Shown here piece after piece: positions 874 through 25,403 of a stretch of 29,124 nt of DNA. The position numbers were made by a program, and so were the translations under genes. The notes below the pieces were generated by a model that was not told where the DNA came from, ran no database searches, and was given only the letters and a program-made list of their open reading frames with translations. The stretch comes from a virus. Each line of letters begins with the position of its first letter. Positions within the stretch are counted from its first letter, which is position 1. The stretch is from IMG/VR virus record IMGVR_UViG_3300030406_002810, positions 1 through 29,124 of that record. One strand, 5' to 3'.

Positions 874-1239
874 TTACAAAATCCAACTCCTTGGTATATT
901 CCTTTGACACCATTTAAAACCTTTCTTATCACACCATTGTGCGTATGTTGTTTTACTCCTTTTACTCAACCTGTTGTGTGCATTCATAAAACAAAATCTA
1001 ATATCTACTTCAGGGTGAGCTTGTTTAATCTTCAAATGCTTTGACCTATCTGCTCCAGTAAAGTAACCTTTAACTTCAATAATAATTCCATTAGGTAAAA
1101 TAAAATCAGGCTTATACTTTCTTTCTACAATGTAGGGTAAAGAAAGTGATTCGTAGGAAAAGGCGACACCCTCTTTTGATAAAGCGTCAGCCACCATTTC
1201 CTCGAACCTAGACCTATATTTATTAGAAGTTTGGGGCAT
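874..1239 (-). CDS. T7 gp3-like endonuclease I (Holliday junction resolvase)
   Basis: Resolves branched DNA and, in T7, helps degrade host DNA. The 121-residue product carries the family's PD-(D/E)xK-like active site: E13 in RSRFEEM, D45 in KPDFILPNG, then E55 and K57 in IEVKG. These match T7 E20, D55, E65 and K67 in order and spacing. The frame is open further upstream to 1323, but the ATG at 1239 gives the family's usual N-terminus and overlaps the end of the ssDNA-binding protein gene by 17 bases, which suggests translational coupling. The overlap falls where that gene encodes its acidic tail. The primase ribosome-binding site overlaps its stop codon. Confidence 0.92.
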   Translation of the reverse strand: MPQTSNKYRSRFEEMVADALSKEGVAFSYESLSLPYIVERKYKPDFILPNGIIIEVKGYFTGADRSKHLKIKQAHPEVDIRFCFMNAHNRLSKRSKTTYAQWCDKKGFKWCQRNIPRSWIL

Positions 1240-1795
1240 CCTCGATGACCACTTCTTCAAAACTTTCGCCTTGTGTAAAGCCTGACTCCTTACTAAAACC
1301 ATGACCACTTGTAGTGTATTCAACTAGTTCAAGTATTTGAGCGGCTTTCAAACGAAGTGTATAACCAAAGCCTTGACTTGGTACATGCCAAAAATATGGT
1401 TGTACCGATAGTTTTATCTTAGACCCTGAACCAATGTTGGGCTCATTGGTTATTGGTTGTACATCTGCGTCATACAAAGCAATTTTAAACTCAATCACAT
1501 CGCCTTGTTTTGATGTAGTTTTTGCAACTTGCTTTGCATTTATTTCATGTTCACCCTCTGCATTAATACGCACAGGTTCTATTGCTTTTTTAATTGCATC
1601 CTTGCCTTGAGCAATACAATACTTGTGATACTCTTGCTCAATCAAAGGTTGTAGTTGAGCTCTGAAAGCATTGTAGTCTTCTTCACTCACTATTAATTTA
1701 CAACTAAACAATCCATCAGGATTGAATTTTGTATCAGGCTTTACTAGTTTTGGGTAAACCGCTTTGCCTGCGGGTGTTGCTATGGTATTAGCCAT
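1223..1795 (-). CDS. T7 gp2.5-like single-stranded DNA-binding protein
   Basis: Coats single-stranded DNA during replication and recombination and contacts polymerase and primase-helicase through its C-terminal tail. The product is 190 residues (T7 gp2.5 is 232). The N-terminus MANTIATPAGKAVYPKLVKP, the central beta-rich region with KIKLSVQPYFW, and an acidic tail ending in EDAPNF with a terminal aromatic residue fit the gp2.5/DUF2815 type. The ribosome-binding site is GGAGGAATTATT before ATG. It lies directly after the methyltransferase gene and overlaps endonuclease I, so it belongs to the replication operon. Confidence 0.87.
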   Translation of the reverse strand: MANTIATPAGKAVYPKLVKPDTKFNPDGLFSCKLIVSEEDYNAFRAQLQPLIEQEYHKYCIAQGKDAIKKAIEPVRINAEGEHEINAKQVAKTTSKQGDVIEFKIALYDADVQPITNEPNIGSGSKIKLSVQPYFWHVPSQGFGYTLRLKAAQILELVEYTTSGHGFSKESGFTQGESFEEVVIEDAPNF

Positions 1796-1811
1796 AATAA
1801 TTCCTCCATTG

Positions 1812-2645
1812 TTATGTTATATCCTCGCACCTTACGAGAAATCTATTATATAATGTTACAAAAGCTTTCATCACTACTTGTGGTTGACATCCATTTCCCA
1901 ACAACCTAAGTCTGTCCAACCTACAGTCAACCCCATAAGTTGTTCTACCCAATTTGGATTTAGTTCTTGGTTCTTCCCAGTTGAATTGGTCTTCGTTTTG
2001 TCTTGCGACAACATTCCTTTTCTCGCCAACGCACTCAAACAAGTCGTTGCTTGACTGTTTCCTTTCAACGCATATTTTTGTTCGTCGCTTGCCACTGGTG
2101 TTGGATAATTTTTTAATTCCAAAGACGAACACTCTTTGCCTTTGGTGCGGGTAGCCGACTTCAGACGAAGAGAATATTCCTGCTGTTGCTTGGTAACCCA
2201 ATCTTTCCAAGTCTGACAAGACATACTGGAGAACTGATTGTCCTTCTGCTGTTCTGCTTGAGATAATTCCTTTGACGTTTTCAAAGAAAACTGAAGTTGG
2301 GTTGCATTGTTCAATTCCTTTACTGATGAAGGGATAGATGTGCCTATCATCATTAACTCCTTTTCTAAGTCCTGACGAACTGAATGATTGGCAAGGAAAT
2401 CCCGCTGACAAAATAGATACTTTTCCAAAAAACTTTTTATAAGGGAAGGTTTTAACATCCGAGTAGATAGGTGCCGCATCCAACTGTTCGCTTTCCATCT
2501 TCTGAAGCAAGTTACAGATGGCATATGCTTCCCTCTCCACGTAACAAATTGTTCGCAAAGTTGGCAGAATTTTTTTAAGTCCGATTCCGATTCCATCGTA
2601 TCCTGAGCAGATTGAAAGGTGTGTAATTGCTTTGGTAGTATCCAC
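1812..2645 (-). CDS. C5-cytosine DNA methyltransferase (Dcm/HhaI type)
   Basis: Transfers a methyl group from S-adenosylmethionine to carbon 5 of cytosine in a specific DNA site. Motifs appear in the normal order: motif I around SICSGYDGIGIGL (11-23), catalytic Cys85 in GFPCQSF (motif IV), FENV at 121-124 (motif VI), QRQR at 168-171 (motif VIII) and DRLRLLGNG (motif IX, ending near 252). The target-recognition stretch between motifs VIII and IX is only about 60 residues. All catalytic elements look intact. It starts with GTG behind AGGGAGA, 17 bases after the RNA polymerase gene. No restriction endonuclease is visible, so it probably modifies phage DNA against host restriction; that role is inferred. 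A long overlapping frame inside it is a shadow. Confidence 0.93.
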   Translation of the reverse strand: MDTTKAITHLSICSGYDGIGIGLKKILPTLRTICYVEREAYAICNLLQKMESEQLDAAPIYSDVKTFPYKKFFGKVSILSAGFPCQSFSSSGLRKGVNDDRHIYPFISKGIEQCNPTSVFFENVKGIISSRTAEGQSVLQYVLSDLERLGYQATAGIFSSSEVGYPHQRQRVFVFGIKKLSNTSGKRRTKICVERKQSSNDLFECVGEKRNVVARQNEDQFNWEEPRTKSKLGRTTYGVDCRLDRLRLLGNGCQPQVVMKAFVTLYNRFLVRCEDIT

Positions 2646-2664
2646 ATAAATCTCCCTAAATTAT

Positions 2665-5100
2665 CTATGAAAAAAAGTATTTACTGTTTAAAACTTCTTT
2701 AGCTTCAAACACACCATATTTTGGTGGTTCAGGTATGTCAAGCTCTTTATGTTTGTTTTGTAATTGTTTTTTAAAATCTCTTAATAAATCAACGTTAAAT
2801 ATATTTACAGTTTGTTCTCTAAGTATTTTTGAAAACAACTCACAGTTATTTGAATGGGTTCCAAAAGAATCATGTATCATACTAAAATCATATATGCCTT
2901 GTTTGTTTGCTTCAATAACACTTTTTGTTAACAAAGAAGCGTCAAGACTGTGAACAAAGTTTGGACTGATACCATTTCTTTGTGAACGTTTACACAAAGA
3001 ATCTGTATGGTGTTTAAATTTTACCCACGTAGCTTTACCACTTATTTTTGTTTTTACTGATTGTCTTGAAAAAGATTTATAATCTTGTAACACAGGAAAA
3101 CCTGTAGGTGTAACCCAAGTTATATCTACATTATTATCTGTACATATTTCAGATACTTTTTTAAGCCAGTTCATACATTGCGTAGGTTTATCTAATACTT
3201 CATTGATTGAATCCCACACATGTCTTGCTAAATAGCCAGTTACTTTATAACGATTAGCTTCTGAAAAAGGGTTTGCTCTTCTTTCTTTTCGTAAACAATC
3301 CTGATACCATTCATCTACATAAGAACGACAAGAATAAAATGTACCGCCATATGGATAGACCATTGTTGGACGCTTAGCTAATTTTCTATCAATACCAAAA
3401 GTAAGCCATGCTGTAGCAATATCATCTCCTAAAATTTTATCGCTTTCTAATTTTTGTATTACTCTTTTAGATACTTCTCCATAAATATCTTGTGGTGAAT
3501 CGGTAGGAGCTACGTTAGTGGCGTAGGCTCCTACTTCATCACGCATTAGGAGGGAGAGTAGTTGCAAACCATTATTTGTGGCATCCATAGACACTGGTAA
3601 ATGTGTAGTAAGTTTACCTTCACGTGTCCATGTTGCCCATTCAAAACACCAAGCTAAAAACTGCCAAGGTTTATCAGCATCAACATAATCTTTATAAGTT
3701 ATTGGATTATCAGCAATCGCTTGTGCTTGTTTTGTAAAATCATATGCCCATTGTTCTCTTTCATTAAGAGTTACTTTATCATTACCAAATGTATTTGCAC
3801 CATGGATAGCTAACCAACGTGCTTGTTCTTTTGTTTTTAATTTCATTGGACGATTAAATTCAAGTAAAGCTCTACTTGGGTCATTACCCTGAATGCCTAA
3901 AAAACTTGGAATGTTATATATTCTACCTCTAAAATCACATTGAGATGGATAAAAGAAACGCACATCTCTAAATTTATCAGCAAGATGTAATGTTTTAGCT
4001 ATTAACAATCGTCTAGATTTAGTTGATAAATTTAAATCATATATCTTTGCTGCTTGTCTTCTCCATTCTCTATTTGATTCTTCATTTGTTTTTATGTCAT
4101 TTGGTACTGGAGGAAACTCTTCGTCTTTTCTGTTTGGAACATCACCTATAATTAAATTATTATCCCAAGACCACTTCATCACATCTAACACTTTTTTATT
4201 AACTTGCCATGGTGTTTGTTGTATTAAGTTTACTGCTTCCATTGGTTCATTCAATGGTTCAGTTATGTTACGTAAGTAATCCATATTAGTTGTTTTTATA
4301 AAAGGAACATGAGGTAAATATAAAGTAGCTTCATCGTATCCACCATCCCATACATTCTTCCAATCTTTAGGTACATCTATGGTAGGTAACCAAAAAGGTT
4401 CCATGAGTTCTCTGTCTGTATTAAAGTCTTCAATCCATTTTAATAATTCAGGTGTAGCTCCAACATATCTTGTTTGTTTCATTCTTTTTTTGTTAGAGTT
4501 TTTCTTTTCTAATATGTATGTATATTCAATCAAACTTGTAGACATACGTAACAATTCTACCATGTTCAATCCCATATTCATTTTGTCACGTAGGTTCCAT
4601 TTATTCCAATCTTCTTTACCACGTTTTTCTGCTTCGTGTTTCATAGAACCACGTACATGTCTTATCTTTGCTTTACTTCCTTTTCTTCTAGCTGCTCCAA
4701 GAAGTATACCTTCTGCTTTTTCTTCATTTGTAGCACAAAGAAAACGACATCTTAATTCATCTTCTATTCTTGCACCAAGATAAACAGCTACTTGAGATAA
4801 AGGACGTTTACGAGATATACTATCGATAATAGCTTTGATAGAAATAAAACCAATTATTTTAGAATCTAAATCTAAACAATCAATTTGATAGCGAGCTTTA
4901 TAATCATACCCTGATACAGTATCTTTCCAGTCTTGTATAGCTTCTACATATTTCGGAAGAGAAAAACGCATTAAACGTTGACCATGTTTACTTTCTAATT
5001 CAGCTTCTCTACTTTTTGCTGATTCAAGGTTAGAACGATAACGTCCCTTACCAAGTAAAACCATATCTTCATTTAATTGTTGTTGTGTTATATCGCTCAC
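2665..5100 (-). CDS. T7-like single-subunit DNA-directed RNA polymerase
   Basis: Transcribes the middle and late phage genes from phage promoters. At 811 residues it is slightly shorter than T7 RNA polymerase (883). Palm and fingers motifs are clear: motif A with the catalytic Asp in MDATNNGLQLL (about residue 505), motif B in RKLAKRPTMVYPYGG (about 575), and motif C with the second catalytic Asp in MIHDSFGTHS (about 743), preceded by NFVHSLDASLL. The start is GTG behind a strong AAGGAGG. Upstream lie a 53-residue ORF and a TTGACA-type promoter candidate. Downstream are the methyltransferase and replication genes, so it heads the early/middle operon. I could not identify its cognate promoter sequence by eye. 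Confidence 0.96.
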   Translation of the reverse strand: MSDITQQQLNEDMVLLGKGRYRSNLESAKSREAELESKHGQRLMRFSLPKYVEAIQDWKDTVSGYDYKARYQIDCLDLDSKIIGFISIKAIIDSISRKRPLSQVAVYLGARIEDELRCRFLCATNEEKAEGILLGAARRKGSKAKIRHVRGSMKHEAEKRGKEDWNKWNLRDKMNMGLNMVELLRMSTSLIEYTYILEKKNSNKKRMKQTRYVGATPELLKWIEDFNTDRELMEPFWLPTIDVPKDWKNVWDGGYDEATLYLPHVPFIKTTNMDYLRNITEPLNEPMEAVNLIQQTPWQVNKKVLDVMKWSWDNNLIIGDVPNRKDEEFPPVPNDIKTNEESNREWRRQAAKIYDLNLSTKSRRLLIAKTLHLADKFRDVRFFYPSQCDFRGRIYNIPSFLGIQGNDPSRALLEFNRPMKLKTKEQARWLAIHGANTFGNDKVTLNEREQWAYDFTKQAQAIADNPITYKDYVDADKPWQFLAWCFEWATWTREGKLTTHLPVSMDATNNGLQLLSLLMRDEVGAYATNVAPTDSPQDIYGEVSKRVIQKLESDKILGDDIATAWLTFGIDRKLAKRPTMVYPYGGTFYSCRSYVDEWYQDCLRKERRANPFSEANRYKVTGYLARHVWDSINEVLDKPTQCMNWLKKVSEICTDNNVDITWVTPTGFPVLQDYKSFSRQSVKTKISGKATWVKFKHHTDSLCKRSQRNGISPNFVHSLDASLLTKSVIEANKQGIYDFSMIHDSFGTHSNNCELFSKILREQTVNIFNVDLLRDFKKQLQNKHKELDIPEPPKYGVFEAKEVLNSKYFFS

Positions 5101-5162
5101 TAAACCTCCTTAATGATTCGATATAAATATATCTATTAAATAAAATCAATATTAATTTTTAA

Positions 5163-5324
5163 TTATTTTTTATCTTTAGAATATAAAACATTAATACTAT
5201 ATTGTATCCTTGAGATTTTACAGGATGGTTGTACAAGCTCCACTAAAAGCTTTTCTATAATATCTCTTATTATTTTTTTATCTTTATAATTTAAATGTTT
5301 ATTTATATCTTTTATTTCATCCAT
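5163..5324 (-). CDS. Small hypothetical protein upstream of RNA polymerase
   Basis: A 53-residue ORF, MDEIKDINKHLNYKDKKIIR onward, ending SKDKK. It is charged, probably helical, with no membrane segment and one cysteine. It ends 62 bases before the polymerase start and would be the first gene of the polymerase transcript from the promoter candidate just upstream. The Shine-Dalgarno is weak (AAAGATT). I do not recognise a family. Position suggests an early protein acting on the host or on transcription, but that is inference. Confidence 0.5.
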   Translation of the reverse strand: MDEIKDINKHLNYKDKKIIRDIIEKLLVELVQPSCKISRIQYSINVLYSKDKK

Positions 5325-5327
5325 AGC

Positions 5328-5370
5328 TAATCTTTAAGATTACTTTGTGTTTTCTCTATGTCAATCTTAA
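5328..5370 (-). promoter_or_regulatory. Candidate promoter with palindromic operator for the polymerase operon
   Basis: Read on the minus strand, a perfect TTGACA -35 hexamer (about 5357-5362) is followed 16 bases later by TAATCT. That -10-like segment falls inside a perfect 15-base palindrome, TAATCTTTAAGATTA (plus strand 5328-5342). A related half-site AATCTTAA lies at 5363-5370 just upstream of the -35. A repressor-type site over a host-type promoter driving the 53-residue ORF and RNA polymerase is a reasonable reading; no binding protein is identified. Confidence 0.45.
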
Positions 5371-5381
5371 AATAAAAAAAG

Positions 5382-5419
5382 TTGCGTCGGTATGTTAAAT
5401 CTTGCGTCGGTATGTTAAA
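5382..5419. repeat. Two tandem 18-bp direct repeats, 20-bp period
   Basis: TTGCGTCGGTATGTTAAA occurs at 5382-5399 and again, identical, at 5402-5419. The 20-base spacing is about two helical turns, so a protein would meet both copies on the same face. They sit upstream of the -35 element of the polymerase promoter candidate and are GC-richer than the DNA around them. I saw no other copies in the window. They could be regulator sites or iterons. Confidence 0.75.
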
Positions 5420-5446
5420 AAAATTTTTACAAAAAAAAATTAAAAA

Positions 5447-5476
5447 GTCACCAGGATTCGATAAAAAAATATCGAT
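5447..5476. repeat. Module-border direct repeat, left copy
   Basis: A 30-base stretch beginning GTCACCAGGATTCGATAAAA recurs at 8992-9021 in the same orientation with 27 of 30 bases identical. The two copies lie outside the outermost genes of the converging module. They may be recombination remnants, an ancient duplication around an insertion, or paired binding sites. Confidence 0.6.
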
Positions 5477-5512
5477 AAAAATATATCGATAAAAATATAT
5501 CGATAAAAAAAT
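5457..5512. repeat. 4 x 14-bp tandem array (ATCGATAAAAATAT type)
   Basis: Four head-to-tail 14-base units: TTCGATAAAAAAAT (5457-5470), ATCGATAAAAATAT (5471-5484), the same again (5485-5498) and ATCGATAAAAAAAT (5499-5512). Each contains the palindrome ATCGAT or a one-base variant. A single related unit occurs on the other side of the module at 9002-9021. Iteron-like arrays beside AT-rich DNA are typical of replication origins; there is no spacer structure, so it is not a CRISPR. Confidence 0.8.
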
Positions 5513-5521
5513 TTTTAATCA

Positions 5522-5620
5522 CCAGGTAACAATTTTGTAATTTTTTAAAAACTAATTTTAAATGAAAGATTAAGAAAAAATAAAAAATAATTTTAAAAAT
5601 CATTTGAAAAAAGTTTTTAA
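5522..5620. repeat. Module-border inverted repeat, left arm
   Basis: Two blocks match the reverse complement of the right border in the same order: CCAGGTAACAATTTTGTAA (5522-5540) against 8982-9000, 18 of 19 identical, and 5595-5620 against 8933-8958, 24 of 26 identical. Poly-A/T content lowers the weight of the second match, but the first contains non-trivial sequence. Both arms point into the module. Confidence 0.55.
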
Positions 5621-5756: not shown

Positions 5757-6287
5757 ATGGTTACAAATAACATATATAAATTAAAACGTTATCTAAATTC
5801 ATTCGGTTATTTCGATTCAAAAGTTGTTCAAAATAGGTTGAATATAGTTAAGCGTTTAAAAGTAGATATTAAAAAAGAAAAAGGCTTTTTTAAAGTTTCT
5901 TTAAAATTAGATAATAAGAAATTTTTAAAAGAGTTTTCTTACATTTCCGATTGTGAAAAAGACGCATTCAAACAAGGGCAAGAATTTAAAAAACAAGTTG
6001 TTGTTTTATGGGTTAAATCAAGCGGTGTTCTTACAAAACCAATTGACTTAATGAAATATGCAAATCGACAAGATAGCATTTTTACACATTTAAATCGGCA
6101 AGATAGCATCTTTGAAAACGTTTGTTTAAATTGCAATTTGTATCCAGTCGTTGAAACTATATTTAATAAAATTTTTATACCTGATGATTTAAACAGATAT
6201 GTAAATGAGTATATGATTTCTGGTATTTGTTTAGATTGTCAAAATGAAGTATTTAAAAGGGAAGGCGTTGACCATGAAAACAATTAA
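5757..6287 (+). CDS. Zinc-knuckle-like hypothetical protein with 10-residue duplication
   Basis: A 176-residue protein of unrecognised family. Its N-terminal two thirds are Lys-rich (YKLKRYLNSFGYFDSKVV onward). In the middle a 10-residue unit starting NRQDSIF is directly duplicated, matching a 30-base period at 6062-6113. The C-terminal part has two cysteine pairs, CLNC and CLDC, about 35 residues apart, a likely four-cysteine zinc site. The start has a good ribosome-binding site (AGGAGCGG). Its stop overlaps the next ATG by 14 bases, so it is coupled to the gp88-like gene. It is the first gene of the rightward arm. A nucleic-acid-binding regulator or replication protein would fit, but this is inference. 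Confidence 0.7.
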   Translation: MVTNNIYKLKRYLNSFGYFDSKVVQNRLNIVKRLKVDIKKEKGFFKVSLKLDNKKFLKEFSYISDCEKDAFKQGQEFKKQVVVLWVKSSGVLTKPIDLMKYANRQDSIFTHLNRQDSIFENVCLNCNLYPVVETIFNKIFIPDDLNRYVNEYMISGICLDCQNEVFKREGVDHENN

Positions 6288-6912
6288 AGAATTAGAGCAA
6301 TCAATCGGCGGTCTTTCAAAGCCTTCTAAAATGCCTTGTTATGGGTTCAGCTTGCCCGCTTCCGCTTGCAAGATTGGAGCTCTATTGATGAACGTTGAAA
6401 ACTCAACTTGTAAAGGCTGTTACGCCTTTAAAAATAGATACTCTTTTAATGTTGTTCAAAACGCTTTGAATAGACGTTTAAACATTCTTTTAGAAGACGT
6501 TGATAAATGGCGTATCAATATAACTGAGTTAATCAGGAGAAAAGAAAAGAGCGGTTTTTTTCGGTGGCATGATTCAGGCGATTTGCAAAGTTATGAGCAT
6601 TTATCCGCTATTGTCAGAATAGCCATAGATTTGCCGAAAATTCGCTTTTGGTTGCCTACTCGAGAATATGGGCTAGTTAATGAATATATCGCTAAAAATG
6701 GCAATTTACCGCCTAATTTGACCATTAGGCTATCAGCCTATTTAAATGATAGCTACGCACCAAATATAAAGGGTTTAAAAACGTCATCAGTTAGCGATAA
6801 AAAACCGCTTATTGGCTGGAGTTGTAAAGCCCCGCAAAATTTCGGCAAATGCGGAACATGTCGGGCTTGCTGGTCTAAAAAAATTAAAAACGTTGTTTAT
6901 AAAAAACATTAA
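6274..6912 (+). CDS. gp88-like cysteine-rich phage/plasmid protein
   Basis: 212 residues from the ATG at 6274, which follows AAAGGGAAGG and overlaps the previous stop; the frame is also open for ten residues upstream. Cysteines cluster at both ends: a KMPCYGFSLPASACK block, then STCKGCYAFKNRYS, and at the C-terminus WSCKAPQNFGKCGTCRACW. The middle has FRWHDSGDLQS followed by RFWLPTRE. This layout (Cys block, CYA, W/R-x-H-x-SGD, T-R) resembles the 'gene product 88' family found in phages and plasmids, whose role is not established. The cysteines suggest a metal or iron-sulphur site. Family assignment is from memory of motifs and is moderate. Confidence 0.6.
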   Translation: MKTIKELEQSIGGLSKPSKMPCYGFSLPASACKIGALLMNVENSTCKGCYAFKNRYSFNVVQNALNRRLNILLEDVDKWRINITELIRRKEKSGFFRWHDSGDLQSYEHLSAIVRIAIDLPKIRFWLPTREYGLVNEYIAKNGNLPPNLTIRLSAYLNDSYAPNIKGLKTSSVSDKKPLIGWSCKAPQNFGKCGTCRACWSKKIKNVVYKKH

Positions 6913-6933
6913 AATTAGAAGGGATAAAAAAAA

Positions 6934-7155
6934 ATGAAATTAAAAGAATTAGAAGAACTTACATTGGAATATGTAAAGGATAAAAATTTATCGTTACCGC
7001 TTGATTTAACAAACGATAATATAAGAAAAAATTTTATAAGTTATTTAACTAAAAATAATGTATCTTTAAAAGATAGGATTTCCTTGTTGATGGGAAATTT
7101 TGAAGCATTTGAAGATGAAGAAGCAAAGGAGAAAAAATGGCAAAATATAGTGTAA
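6934..7155 (+). CDS. Small acidic hypothetical protein
   Basis: 73 residues, MKLKELEELTLEYVKDKNLS onward, with an acidic tail (EAFEDEEAKEKKW). It has a clear AGAAGGGA ribosome-binding site, and its end overlaps the start of the following small gene by 19 bases. It is predicted soluble and helical. No family recognised. It is part of the rightward operon with the zinc-knuckle and gp88-like genes; the short overlapping spacing supports co-expression. Confidence 0.6.
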   Translation: MKLKELEELTLEYVKDKNLSLPLDLTNDNIRKNFISYLTKNNVSLKDRISLLMGNFEAFEDEEAKEKKWQNIV

Positions 7156-18997: not shown

Positions 18998-19483
18998 TTA
19001 TTTTTCCTTCTTTGTTATATAAAATTTATAAAAATCTTGTCCACGTATATTTAATTTAGAACTAAAAATAGCTCCACACCATTTTAACCATCTGATAGAT
19101 AACTTATTATCTACATGAACATAGTTAGTAACTGTTCCATATTTATTAGTTAATTTATTTACCCAATATCTACAATTTCTAATAAATATTTTTTTATATT
19201 TAAAAACATCATTTGTACCTAACATCCATACATAAACTTCTTTATTAGGAGAAACACCACAACCAAAGATAATATATGGAACATTTTTATCATCTAATAA
19301 AATGTATGTTTCATCATCATATAATAAACCTTTAAATAAAGGTTCAATGGGGTCACTAGAAAAACAAGCAACTTCTAATAAATCGTGTTTACGTAAATTA
19401 TCTGCAATATGTTTAAAATATTTTTTATCTGCTTCAACTACTTTATGATTAGTAGCTCCAAAATATTCAACAAATTTATCCAA
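18998..19483 (-). CDS. Internal virion protein A (T7 gp13-like, GNAT-like fold)
   Basis: Small virion-assembly protein in T7 position 13; relatives (DUF2833) look like degenerate acetyltransferases. From a TTG at 19483 it has 161 residues: DLLEVACFS and YILLDDKNVPYIIFGCGV, then a VWMLGTN segment, as in the family. The frame is open to an ATG at 19555, but that would overlap 80 bases of the tail tubular B end and encode a peptide unlike the family. AGAAGGG lies about nine bases before the TTG. The start is therefore uncertain; T7 gp13 is 138 residues. Confidence 0.72.
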   Translation of the reverse strand: MDKFVEYFGATNHKVVEADKKYFKHIADNLRKHDLLEVACFSSDPIEPLFKGLLYDDETYILLDDKNVPYIIFGCGVSPNKEVYVWMLGTNDVFKYKKIFIRNCRYWVNKLTNKYGTVTNYVHVDNKLSIRWLKWCGAIFSSKLNIRGQDFYKFYITKKEK

Positions 19484-21962
19484 TCCTTGAAGCCCTTCTA
19501 TGTAAAAATATTTCAAACTCTGCACTAGTAAATTTAGATGGAAATGGGCTATCACTTTCTATTGATATTTTAGTATCTCCTACATCACCAAAAACAGGAA
19601 ATCTAAAGAATCCTGTATCTAATGAAGCTGAATCTGTTACTGAGTTTGTATATGTCGTAGAACCAGTAATACTTTCATTAGGTGTTACTTTAACATCAAA
19701 TCCTGAAGAGTCAGTAAAAAATATGGCACCATTTCTAATTTTATTTTTTATGAAACCTGATGGAGCTTTACTACTGCCTGCTTGTAAATTTAAAAATGGA
19801 TTAGTAAATGTATACTTCATTGTATAAGGACTACCAACATAAACTGTTCCTGTGTGAGCACTAGCCAATGTTACAAGTGTTGCTGTACCTGATAAAGGCA
19901 TAGATTCACTCAATGTTAGTTGATTACCTTCATCATCCCATACTTGTATTGTATCTCCTGCACTAGCAGTATACTCTAAATTTATAGCGTATTGAGCAAT
20001 AGTAGTTATTGAATTACCCATACCTGAATGATTATTACAAAAGTAATATGTAGTGCCTGTTGATGCGGGAGTATATTCTACCTTAGCTCCTGCTGTTCCT
20101 GCTGTTCCTGTAATTGTTACACCTGATGTTATAATACCACCTTCAGCTGAAGAACCTATTCTTAGGTCGTGCCCTGAGTTACTAGAGTCAGATAAGTCGA
20201 AAGTGTAAGTAACTCCTTGATTTAAAACTAACGCAGGATTCTTTTTTCTATCTAAATTAAATACATTTTGATAACCTGTTCCATCATCAGTTACACGAAC
20301 AGAAAATGTTTTCGCTGTGTTTACTTCTACTTTTTTACGTATATCTAAATGATTACTATAACTTAATCCTGAATCTTGAACAACATCACTTACAGGCATT
20401 TTTAAAAGATGTGTTTTACTTTCTTTTGTAGCTATAATAAACATAACACCTTCAAAAATATTAAAACTTCTTACTTCAAAATCAAATATAAATTTAGACC
20501 AAGAGCTTAATAATTTTTTATTACCACTCCAAAAATATTTGTATATATAAATTGTACTAGGAGTAGATGGAGCATAAGCAGCTATAATATCTTCAGAAGA
20601 ACTACCTTTCATAACTGTTATATCTTTTGGAATATATGTAGGAACATGTTCTGTTATTTCTGTAGCATCATAATTATCTGTTGTAGAGTTTACAATAAAT
20701 TCACGAATACCAGTTCCATTTTGTCTATTAAAAGCAAAGTAAAGATAAGAACCTAGAGCTATAGGCTTAACAGAATCGTTAGCATCAAAATTTGTTATGG
20801 GTGCTATAGATACTGTTGAAGGTGTTAATAGTGTACCGCTTTTTAAAACAAACTGACCATTATCAGCAAATAAAATTAAATTTTCTTGAAAACCTACAGC
20901 ATCTCTTAAATTAACAACTTGTGGAGAAGCGACTGTAACATCAATAGGGTCAGAGTCTAATAAAGATTGTGTGGTAGTTCTGAAAAAATTGTAACTAACT
21001 CTATTGTTTTCAAATACACCAAAACCTGCTTCTGAAAGAATTATATTATCTTCTGATAAAAATCCTAATCTATTTTTAAAAGAAAATATATTGTTAATTT
21101 TCTTACCTTTAAAAGATGGCATAGGATTAGTATTATCATCTCCTACTTGTCTTTGAGCAAAATTCATAGGCGATAATTCAAAACTATTATTTCCTGTATT
21201 AATTAATTCTTGTGGCATAGTAGTAGCATCTAAAGTAGTATTAATACCAAAACCCGCTGTTTCTTCCCAATACCCTTCATTAAAATCAGAATCATCGTTT
21301 GTAACAAATTTACAATAAAAATCATCTACTCCTGTTTCAGCGTTACCACCTACTTTTATTTTAAAATCTTTAGGAGCAACTAAAGGTAAATCAGTTATAG
21401 CTGCTACTTCTTTATGTACTTTTTTTAAACCAGCACCACCTAATCCATCTTCTACTGTGAAAGAAAAGTTAGCTCCATCATCTTTAGTTATTTTTATAGT
21501 AGCCCCTACTCTTTCAGTCGTAAATGAATTTGTAAAAGAAGTAGGCATGGTTCTGCTACTAAATCTACTAGCATCATGGTCATCACTTGTTACATCAGAT
21601 AATGCTCTTGCTATATCAGAAGTATCTGTTATCAAACTACCATCAGCAGCACTACTTTTTTCTGTAGTTGCTTCAACAACTCCAAAACCTGAAGCACTTG
21701 CTACACTAGGTGTATTTAATGTTATAGTACCACTAAAACCTTCACTAGGAACTGTTGTAGGAAATACAGGAGCATTTGACCCTGTATCATAACCCGAGCC
21801 ACCATTTAAAACAGTAATAGAAGAAACTTTTTGTCCTTGGTCAAAATCATTTGAAATAGTTGCTCCATTATTGCTATAACCACCACTAGAAGTTATAGCG
21901 GTTATAGCTGTACCACTAGCCCCACCTATAGTAGCTGATAAGTTAATTCTGTTATTAAACAT
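19476..21962 (-). CDS. Tail tubular protein B (T7 gp12-like), C-terminal 828 residues
   Basis: Forms the tail nozzle. This frame carries the body of gp12: EGYWEETAGFGINTTLDATT, then NIFSFKNRLGFLSEDNIILSEA, the beta-propeller region (PIDVTVASPQVVNLRDAV, ITEHVPTYIPKDI) and the C-terminal GFFRFPVFGDVGDTK and LHRRASRIG, all alignable by eye with T7 gp12. It lacks the N-terminal domain, which is the separate gene at 22533-23438 in the same frame, 1476 bases (492 codons) upstream. Its ATG overlaps the stop of the intervening oxygenase-like gene (TAATG). Around 570-660 it has an extra domain with H598, C642, H645 and M648 resembling a cupredoxin copper site. Glycine-rich repeats (NGGSGY) occur near the N-terminus. 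Confidence 0.9.
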   Translation of the reverse strand: MFNNRINLSATIGGASGTAITAITSSGGYSNNGATISNDFDQGQKVSSITVLNGGSGYDTGSNAPVFPTTVPSEGFSGTITLNTPSVASASGFGVVEATTEKSSAADGSLITDTSDIARALSDVTSDDHDASRFSSRTMPTSFTNSFTTERVGATIKITKDDGANFSFTVEDGLGGAGLKKVHKEVAAITDLPLVAPKDFKIKVGGNAETGVDDFYCKFVTNDDSDFNEGYWEETAGFGINTTLDATTMPQELINTGNNSFELSPMNFAQRQVGDDNTNPMPSFKGKKINNIFSFKNRLGFLSEDNIILSEAGFGVFENNRVSYNFFRTTTQSLLDSDPIDVTVASPQVVNLRDAVGFQENLILFADNGQFVLKSGTLLTPSTVSIAPITNFDANDSVKPIALGSYLYFAFNRQNGTGIREFIVNSTTDNYDATEITEHVPTYIPKDITVMKGSSSEDIIAAYAPSTPSTIYIYKYFWSGNKKLLSSWSKFIFDFEVRSFNIFEGVMFIIATKESKTHLLKMPVSDVVQDSGLSYSNHLDIRKKVEVNTAKTFSVRVTDDGTGYQNVFNLDRKKNPALVLNQGVTYTFDLSDSSNSGHDLRIGSSAEGGIITSGVTITGTAGTAGAKVEYTPASTGTTYYFCNNHSGMGNSITTIAQYAINLEYTASAGDTIQVWDDEGNQLTLSESMPLSGTATLVTLASAHTGTVYVGSPYTMKYTFTNPFLNLQAGSSKAPSGFIKNKIRNGAIFFTDSSGFDVKVTPNESITGSTTYTNSVTDSASLDTGFFRFPVFGDVGDTKISIESDSPFPSKFTSAEFEIFLHRRASRIG

Positions 21963-22546
21963 TATTCAGTCCCATCGTTATCATATTGTAAATTAAATCC
22001 TATGCTAATTCTATTTGTTTTACTTCCTACACAATGCCATAAAGGTTTTGTTTGTGTAATATTAAATGTATGAAAGTTAAATCCTTTTTTATCCCATTTA
22101 GTTACAAGTTCTTTTTTATCTTCATCATAGTATCTAAAGAAACTTTTGTTATCTTCCTCCGCCCAAGCAACATAAGTTCTGTCACCTTGCCCATCTTTTA
22201 AATTTGTATGCCAACCACAGTACCCATTTTTAGGATACCAAAAAAACCCAGTAATATTAAAGTTATAATTTTTTAAAAATAAACCTTCAAATGATTGTAG
22301 TGGGTGTCTTTCTATAGTTATACGATTATCATTATCTTCAATATCTCTAGCTTTATTTAATGTAGGAAAATTATTTTTTAAATAAATTAATCTAGATAAA
22401 GATGTCTTTTCTTCTATAGATAAATCAGAATAATCGTAACAATTTGTTCTAGTATGATATTGTAAATTAAGAATATCTTTTATTACTTTATCACCATAAC
22501 CTTCATCTACAAATTTATTAACTACTTCTAACTTAGTTATCGTCAT
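21962..22546 (-). CDS. 2OG-Fe(II) oxygenase-like protein inserted in tail tubular B gene
   Basis: 194 residues from the ATG at 22546, which lies 13 bases inside the end of the N-terminal gp12 gene. The second half looks like a jelly-roll oxygenase of a type I recall from marine phages: NGYCGWHTN with H113 and N115, GDRTYVAW, SFFRYYD, then PLWHCVGSKTNRISIGF with H171, R179 and S181. The metal triad would be H-x-N...H rather than H-x-D/E...H, so activity is uncertain. Possible role: hydroxylation of protein, or of a base or metabolite; the substrate is unknown. The ribosome-binding site is poor, as expected if it sits inside former gp12 coding DNA. Its 585 bases are an exact multiple of three. 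Confidence 0.65.
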   Translation of the reverse strand: MTITKLEVVNKFVDEGYGDKVIKDILNLQYHTRTNCYDYSDLSIEEKTSLSRLIYLKNNFPTLNKARDIEDNDNRITIERHPLQSFEGLFLKNYNFNITGFFWYPKNGYCGWHTNLKDGQGDRTYVAWAEEDNKSFFRYYDEDKKELVTKWDKKGFNFHTFNITQTKPLWHCVGSKTNRISIGFNLQYDNDGTE

Positions 22547-23438
22547 AACTAACCCAATTATATCTATAGGTTGCGGCTTCTCCTGCTCCTTCTCCAAAAT
22601 CCATTTTATATTGTTTACCAAAATCTCCTTGAGCTACAAACACTAAAGCATCAGTAGATTGAGCTGCTGATAAATCTGTAGTCATATCTGCTGTTTTTGT
22701 ATTGTTTAATAAAAAAGTTGAATCACCTATTGTTGTTGCTTTAACTTCAGTAGATGGTGTAGTGCTTGTTAAATAATGTGATGAAGAACTACTAGTAATG
22801 GTAACTACATTTGATGCAGGGTTAGCCACAGTAAAATCTGCATGTGCATTTATAGCAGTAAAAATATTATCAGCAGTTACATCATTGCTTGTATTAGGTC
22901 TCCAATTCAAAGAAGTTGAAGGAGAGCTTGAACCAACTGCTTCAGAGGTAAACGTTATAGTTTCTCCTTTTGTATTAGTTAATTGTATAGTAGTTCCTAC
23001 TGCAATATTAGCAAAATCAGTTACAGTAATAGTGTTTTCACTAACAGCTAATCTTGTAGAATCACTTGTATTAACAGGTACTTGTCCAATAGTATAACCA
23101 TCTTTATAAGATTGCACTCCTACTTTAATATTACATTCTTTACCTATTTCTCCTTCATTATCAGAATGTATTCTAAATATTCTTAATTTTGTACCATCAT
23201 GTAAAACTACATATTTTTCACTTTCACTTCTATTTATAAAATGAATAAAACTATTGGAACTAATAGCTGTTTCTAAAAGCTGTGCTAAATGTTCTGTTTG
23301 TGGTCTTTTACGTAAACCTTCTACAACAGAACTCATAGCGTTCTCTTGCTCTCTTCCTTGTCCCTCAAGTCTTTGTTTATCAGATTGTTGAGAAACACCT
23401 TGTATTAAATTAGGTACTGCTTTTGTAATTAATGGCAT
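22533..23438 (-). CDS. Tail tubular protein B, N-terminal 301 residues
   Basis: N-terminal domain of the T7 gp12-type tail nozzle. It starts MPLITKAVPNLIQGVSQQSD, then EGLRKRPQTEHLAQL, FIHFINRSESEKYVVLH and TKLRIFRI, all clear counterparts of the T7 gp12 start. After a Ser/Thr-rich variable part it reaches VFVAQGDFGKQYKMDFG, which in T7-like proteins continues into the body of the same chain. Here it stops after VSYDDN, where the oxygenase-like gene begins. It starts at the base where the gp11 stop ends. Probably expressed as a separate half of a split protein. Confidence 0.87.
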   Translation of the reverse strand: MPLITKAVPNLIQGVSQQSDKQRLEGQGREQENAMSSVVEGLRKRPQTEHLAQLLETAISSNSFIHFINRSESEKYVVLHDGTKLRIFRIHSDNEGEIGKECNIKVGVQSYKDGYTIGQVPVNTSDSTRLAVSENTITVTDFANIAVGTTIQLTNTKGETITFTSEAVGSSSPSTSLNWRPNTSNDVTADNIFTAINAHADFTVANPASNVVTITSSSSSHYLTSTTPSTEVKATTIGDSTFLLNNTKTADMTTDLSAAQSTDALVFVAQGDFGKQYKMDFGEGAGEAATYRYNWVSYDDN

Positions 23439-24031
23439 TATGATATATTATAGTTTCTATTTATTCCTACTCTAGCACTTGCATCAAAATTGTCAAATAT
23501 AGTTCTATCTGAATTACCACTATCATATTCTAATAATTCTGCACGTGACATAACTTCATCTCTAGCTAATAATGCTTCTAATTCTCTAGAGCCTACTAAC
23601 TGAGCTTGTAAAACTCTTGAAGATTTTATAGTTATATATCTTCTTGCTGATTCAGGTAAATCTGTAAAATCAAGTAAACTAACTGTATTTAATTCAATAT
23701 CAGCATCAAATTCAAATGTAGCATTTTCTCTGTCATATAGAAAAGCACCACGTATTACCACATCTTTAGTTTTATCATTAGCGTCTATTTTTACTACATC
23801 GGTAGGTATAGATATTTTATTTGTACTTGAATCAGGACTTAACGTAACTTTTGGTGCAGTATTAAAATGCCAACCTTCAAGTTGCACCTCTCTTGAAACA
23901 TCGGCTAATACAGTATTTGCAATAGTTACATGTACAGGTAAATTACCTCCTGTGATTGCAGATACTGGGCTTTCACCTATGTATCGTAACATTGTATTTA
24001 CTGCTTCTAATTCTGTAGTTGTTGTTGGCAT
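23438..24031 (-). CDS. Tail tubular protein A (T7 gp11-like)
   Basis: Adaptor ring between portal and nozzle. 197 residues (T7 gp11: 196). The start with ELEAVNTMLRYIGESPV, then VQLEGWHFN, DVVIRGAFLYDRENATF, and LPESARRYITIKSSRVLQ are typical of the family. It follows the strong terminator after the capsid gene, so its transcript is read-through or comes from a promoter I cannot see. It shares one base with the next gene. Confidence 0.93.
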   Translation of the reverse strand: MPTTTTELEAVNTMLRYIGESPVSAITGGNLPVHVTIANTVLADVSREVQLEGWHFNTAPKVTLSPDSSTNKISIPTDVVKIDANDKTKDVVIRGAFLYDRENATFEFDADIELNTVSLLDFTDLPESARRYITIKSSRVLQAQLVGSRELEALLARDEVMSRAELLEYDSGNSDRTIFDNFDASARVGINRNYNIS

Positions 24032-25328: not shown

Positions 25329-25350
25329 TTAATACCTCCATGGTTGGATG

Positions 25351-25396
25351 CGTTCCTTCACAGACTATCTGCTACTTCCGAGGTTACCCTTGAACG
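25351..25396 (-). promoter_or_regulatory. Glutamine riboswitch (Downstream-peptide/glnA motif)
   Basis: Minus-strand RNA of 46 bases with the class architecture: P1 CGUUC (25396-25392) pairs with GAACG (25355-25351). P2 is AGG-GUAA-CCU (25390-25381), capped by a GNRA tetraloop. The conserved joining sequence CGGAAGUAG follows (25380-25372). P3 is CAGA-UAG-UCUG (25371-25361), and the conserved UGAAGGAACGC closes the core. These invariant blocks match the glutamine-sensing glnA/Downstream-peptide consensus. ACCUC in P2 (25384-25380) can instead pair with GAGGU in the peptide's Shine-Dalgarno (25338-25334). Ligand-stabilised P2 should therefore free the ribosome-binding site, predicting activation by glutamine. 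Confidence 0.87.
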
Positions 25397-25403
25397 TATT
25401 AAA

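Follow-up and report, generated by a model that had tools for sequence, protein, structure and literature searches.

The window, i.e., the whole stretch of DNA analyzed, is an entire IMG/VR virus record of 29,124 bases. It corresponds to a contig of a T7-like (Autographiviridae-type) marine phage, with homologues of T7-type RNA polymerase, endonuclease I, a single-stranded DNA-binding protein, portal, capsid, gp11, gp12, gp13, gp14 and terminase being encoded. Examination of the tail region revealed that gp12, the nozzle protein (tail tubular protein B), is not encoded as one polypeptide, as are T7-type nozzle proteins, but rather by two open reading frames (ORFs) with another gene inserted between them. 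The features of this region, all found on the minus strand, are listed here in the order of transcription:

23438-24031, minus strand: gp11 (tail tubular protein A, adaptor; PF17212, E 7.8e-48), the stop codon of which overlaps the gp12 start codon as TAATG
22533-23438, minus strand: N-half of gp12 (nozzle, tail tubular protein B), 301 residues, ending in ...YNWVSYDDN (PF25675 profile positions 1-99, E 7.6e-42; T7 gp12 residues 1-167)
22533-22546, minus strand: 14-nt overlap of the N-half end and the insert start, TTATGACGATAACTAA, with the insert in the +1 frame (a TTATG start and the +1 frame are also seen in two other split phages, L001 and L025)
22546 (ATG) to 21962 (TAA), minus strand: inserted gene, 585 nt, encoding 194 residues predicted to form a double-stranded beta-helix (DSBH), with H113-T-N115...H171...R179-x-S181 (AlphaFold2 model and 57-row alignment)
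21961-21965, minus strand: TAATG, in which the insert stop and the C-half start overlap, as read from the sequence
19476-21962, minus strand: C-half of gp12, 828 residues, opening with about 90 hypervariable residues, followed by the beta-propeller and platform (PF25675, E 4.2e-143)
18998-19555, minus strand: gp13-like gene (PF11090, E 2.9e-9; phrog_308, E 7.8e-33), sharing an 80-nt overlap with the end of the gp12 C-half in another frame

Both halves match the PF25675 (Phage_nozzle) profile at successive positions, namely, 1-99 for the N-half and 176-607 for the C-half, and both match phrog_457. The original prediction had described a gp12 homologue in two ORFs of 301 and 828 residues surrounding an inserted gene, and its coordinates, overlaps and arithmetic all proved to be correct. 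The two halves are also, as was claimed, in one frame, 492 codons apart, such that removal of the 585 nt leaves a V-S-L-F-N-N reading. The further proposal that this exact in-frame unit is the sign of a clean insertion was, however, not borne out. Because the C-half is shifted by +1 against the N-half in both L001 and L025, the keeping of frame in the window is a one-in-three coincidence that is silent on mechanism. Nor can the overlaps and poor ribosome-binding site of the insert be taken as marks of cargo, as had been suggested, since the gp11 stop and the gp12 start likewise share a TAATG. As such, TAATG and weak ribosome-binding sites are ordinary in this operon. The TAATG at the border between the insert and the C-half likely leads to termination-reinitiation.

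The insert is not set apart by base composition, and neither a target-site duplication nor an inverted repeat was found at its borders, where flanking repeats were limited to weak, chance-like pairs. Two other kinds of intervening element were considered and rejected, namely, a self-splicing intron, since an Rfam scan of the window returned no intron family and the 585 nt are wholly ORF, and an intein, since the insert and gp12 are in different frames and the insert adopts a DSBH fold.

Elsewhere in the window, a glutamine riboswitch aptamer (RF01739, 43 bits; 25347-25398, minus strand) occupies the gap that precedes the major capsid gene. A short block of plus-strand genes that includes a GP88 (PF17338) homologue spans positions 5757-7155 of a contig that is otherwise minus-strand. 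Finally, a C-5 cytosine DNA methylase gene (1812-2645, minus strand) lies between the genes encoding the single-stranded DNA-binding protein and RNA polymerase, and is overlapped almost fully by a 257-residue open frame on the same strand.

Position of the break in the nozzle protein

Profile alignment of the N-halves extends up to T7 gp12 residue 167, and residues 91-824 of the C-half, as modeled with AlphaFold, align with T7 gp12 residues 170-791 (VIA Z about 18). Because confidence in the C-half model was middling (pLDDT 63.6, with residues 1-92 under 50), the model was used for mapping of the propeller and platform only. Jointly, the two halves thus cover residues 1-167 and 170-791 of T7 gp12, with no part of the T7 core missing.

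In T7 gp12, the chain leaves the base of the propeller near Y146, forms the nozzle tip and has returned by Y281, while the first 45 residues provide three strands of the platform barrel (PMC6702177). As residues 167-170 fall between Y146 and Y281, the break is assigned, on the basis of alignment and model, to the nozzle-tip segment, at the edge of a hypervariable region. Contiguous relatives also present a hypervariable stretch at the point where the C-half opens with its own. If this placement is right, then the N-chain would be woven into both the platform and the propeller, in which case the two chains could hardly work apart.

Recurrence of the split in other phages

From IMG/VR, 126 distinct gp12 N-termini were retrieved, of which 110 extend as a single frame of at least 600 residues and 14 are cut by contig ends. 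An early stop was seen in only two, those of L001 and L025, and in each of these a homologous insert, respectively 42 and 39% identical to that of the window, is found at the same site. Likewise, gp12 of AP013544.1, the nearest annotated phage, is a single ORF of 921 residues, relative to which nothing was lost at the break in the window. Contiguous gp12 is hence the rule in relatives, meaning that the split is a derived state, and the case in which the N-terminal part would always be a separate, unrelated protein is excluded. Same-site breakage of gp12 by an oxygenase-fold gene is rare and repeated. At least three lineages of T7-like phages, all uncultured, are affected, a number that is a count and not a frequency, since the gp12 collection was partly seeded with split genes.

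In the window, L001 and L025 alike, the N-half ends in Y-D-D and the insert starts with TTATG, shifted into the +1 frame with respect to the N-half. The second border varies. In L025, it consists of an in-frame stop and then 3 nt, and in L001, a further small gene lies between the insert and the gp12 C-half. The junction of the N-half and insert is repeated in L326, a contig from a different metagenome that shares 95% identity with L025 across 834 aligned bases, and in which the N-frame itself contains an apparent indel. Comparison of L025 and L326 yielded weakly informative dN/dS values of 0.044/0.082 for the N-half and 0.059/0.092 for the insert (63 codons).

The same site, +1 overlap, Y-D-D end and TTATG start in all three phages would be explained by one ancient insertion, with the N-half/insert block later being exchanged between lineages by recombination, such that the three cases reflect one event. 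Indeed, a single clade of the three was not rejected in the tree of the N-halves, where L001 and L025 group together (92/70; AU p 0.40), nor in that of the inserts (AU p 0.13). By contrast, a single clade was rejected in the C-half tree (AU p 0.029), in which L001, 68% identical to L079, groups with contiguous gp12s and the window is placed beside contiguous AP013544.1. Moreover, the L001 insert and the DGRHR-motif gene accompanying it (see below) are nearest to those of L084, located outside gp12, with the two insert copies lying side by side in the insert tree (99/90). All three trees are weakened by long branches. We give a single ancient insertion somewhat less than an even chance; as far as these sequences go, the site may have been entered repeatedly, or just once with recombination thereafter.

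L025 contains a gene for a gp11 (tube A) homologue of 1169 residues (1039-4548, plus strand), with a long repeat (DKQALTEVKxALDIVADTTLKG) within the PF17212 domain, and oversized ORFs are found at the gp11 position in several other loci. In L070 (1029-4740), a gp12 ORF of 1083 residues is followed by a second ORF repeating the C-terminal part of gp12, a possible partial duplication.

The inserted protein and its relatives

The original prediction had described the insert as 2OG-Fe(II)-oxygenase-like, a description that held for fold but not for sequence profile. No Pfam, PHROG or PDB sequence match other than noise was obtained for the insert. By contrast, its AlphaFold2 model (pLDDT 87.7, built on a 57-row alignment) presents the DSBH of the 2OG-Fe(II) oxygenase superfamily and matches PHD2 (3oui; VIA Z 10.7, 148 residues, rmsd 3.3) and P4H of Pseudomonas putida (Z 10.4). 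The best viral fold match is an uncharacterised phage protein, and several 2OG-Fe(II) oxygenases of T4-like cyanophages are included among the BFVD fold matches.

Five residues, namely, H113, N115, H171, R179 and S181, are invariant in the 57 aligned relatives and are positioned in the model on those core strands where prolyl 4-hydroxylase-type enzymes hold H, D, H and the 2OG-binding R-x-S. R179 and S181 are found 8-10 residues past H171, a spacing that suggests a role for this pair in binding the 2OG carboxylate. In place of the HxD/E...H metal triad, however, HxN...H is seen in all aligned relatives, with N115 replacing Asp/Glu. Because Asn replaces the acidic ligand, the insert is referred to as oxygenase-like in fold and is not filed as a 2OG-Fe(II) oxygenase; given this motif, it may be no 2OG oxygenase.

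When the insert alone served as query against viral contigs, nothing was found, since a single sequence lacks the sensitivity of a pattern; a 4-row alignment used as query returned 146 relatives. Relatives are found in IMG/VR contigs, in two annotated records of uncultured phages and in eight metagenome-assembled bacterial contigs (host or phage DNA), with the family being absent from every isolated-phage record searched. For 46 of 68 relatives, an ORF of at least 100 residues ends within 60 nt of their start, and in 5 of the 10 such upstream ORFs tested, this is a tail fibre, tail collar, tail tube or other virion gene, the rest being unknown. In addition, 23 of the 68 adjoin a small gene encoding a DGRHR motif. 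The extra gene of L001 is one of these, sharing 53% identity with that of L084, and in L091 the DGRHR gene is fused to an HxN oxygenase-like gene. Given these tail-gene and DGRHR neighbours, the insert is considered to belong to a tail-associated cassette, which is also present outside gp12. Judging by alignment and predicted fold, the insert is a member of an undescribed tail-associated DSBH family with an invariant Asn at the metal site. Absent from the original prediction were the two additional split lineages, the extra gene that accompanies the insert in one of these lineages, the HxN motif, and the association of this enzyme family with tail genes.

The DGRHR gene (phrog_35149, unknown function) was located at 1939-2295 in L001, 5570-5929 in L084, 5495-5845 in L135 and in 20 other contigs. 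In L084, two tandem, diverged HxN oxygenase-like genes occupy positions 4385-5570 (plus strand) of the tail-fibre region. The possibility that the acidic Y-D-D end of the N-half serves as a substrate tag was also considered and rejected. As the upstream proteins of other insert relatives do not share Y-D-D, the simpler explanation is that this end arises because the insert start overlaps the N-half there.

A proposed two-chain nozzle and its comparison with known systems

We consider it probable that an enzyme cassette associated with tail genes inserted at a permissive position and so broke the nozzle gene, resulting in a two-chain nozzle and a tail-modifying enzyme encoded in a coupled operon. 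The cassette gene would have entered the freely varying nozzle-tip segment, at the border of the hypervariable region, via ordinary phage recombination. The N-half, the enzyme and the C-half would then be translated, in this order, from one operon, probably being coupled through the overlap of stop and start codons at each border. Each gp12 half would retain its own part of the fold, with both chains building the nozzle. The nozzle hexamer would thus comprise six copies of each chain, with the N-chain (platform strands and first propeller strands) being interlocked with the C-chain. The enzyme would most likely modify a tail protein made together with it, perhaps the nozzle itself.

It is possible, if doubtful, that the insert is mainly a passenger with no role in the nozzle, hard to lose from between two essential halves, as argued for free-standing homing endonucleases. 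Genes left in pieces by such passengers are known, as with mobE in Aeh1 nrdA and mobA in T4 gene 60 (PMC2988022), and the cassette is also present at other tail-gene sites. The insert, however, has a DSBH fold and presents no endonuclease motif or family match in Pfam or PHROGs, and so has no evident means of homing. At the same time, the invariance of its active-site-like residues in 57 aligned relatives argues for selection on the insert protein itself. We regard it as rather unlikely that a mobile HxN DSBH cassette, often accompanied by the DGRHR gene, repeatedly and independently enters the nozzle-tip site, with the enzyme modifying the tip or fibres through the chemistry of an Asn-substituted metal site. 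Highly improbable is the generation of one chain from the three ORFs through one frameshift into the insert frame and another out of it. The frames do overlap at the first border and the oxygenase domain would come to be placed at the nozzle tip, yet the borders share no slippery sequence and the second consists of TAATG, a stop then 3 nt, or a whole extra gene, depending on the phage. Lastly, although the window is a single metagenome contig, a chimera or misassembly is exceedingly unlikely, since homologous, diverged splits (inserts 39-42% identical) are found in L001 and L025 and the junction is seen again in the independent contig L326.

A nozzle built from two chains would be a natural experiment on whether a tail machine that gates DNA can form from a nozzle cut in its tip segment, with the N-terminal strands coming from a separate chain. 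Phage genes in pieces are, moreover, not limited to replication enzymes or endonuclease inserts. With a tail-associated DSBH family bearing an invariant Asn having been exposed, the idea that phages encode a modification of virion proteins can be put to the test.

In terms of known systems, the split protein shares sequence, domain order and operon place between gp11 and gp13 with the T7 gp12 nozzle (PF25675) and P-SCSP1u gp23 (8i4m), yet differs in being encoded by two ORFs rather than one and in carrying, at the break, about 90 additional hypervariable residues. The insert shares with the prolyl 4-hydroxylase and PHD2 2OG-Fe(II) oxygenases the DSBH, the His ending the second core strand and the spacing of the second His and R-x-S, but has Asn in place of the Asp/Glu ligand and no Pfam profile match. 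The 2OG-Fe(II) oxygenases of T4-like cyanophages resemble the insert in size and are likewise DSBH proteins from marine phages, but their suggested targets are host nitrogen status or DNA repair (PMC3037559). Finally, in T4-like phages, genes have been left in pieces by homing endonucleases, i.e., Aeh1 nrdA by mobE and T4 gene 60 by mobA, as well as phage 25 gene 43 (PMC2988022). There too, relatives are contiguous, the splitting gene is free-standing, overlaps of start and stop codons suggest coupling and the products must reassemble (PMC2988022). By contrast, the gene in pieces described here is one for a virion structural protein, interrupted by an oxygenase-fold insert at one site in at least three lineages.
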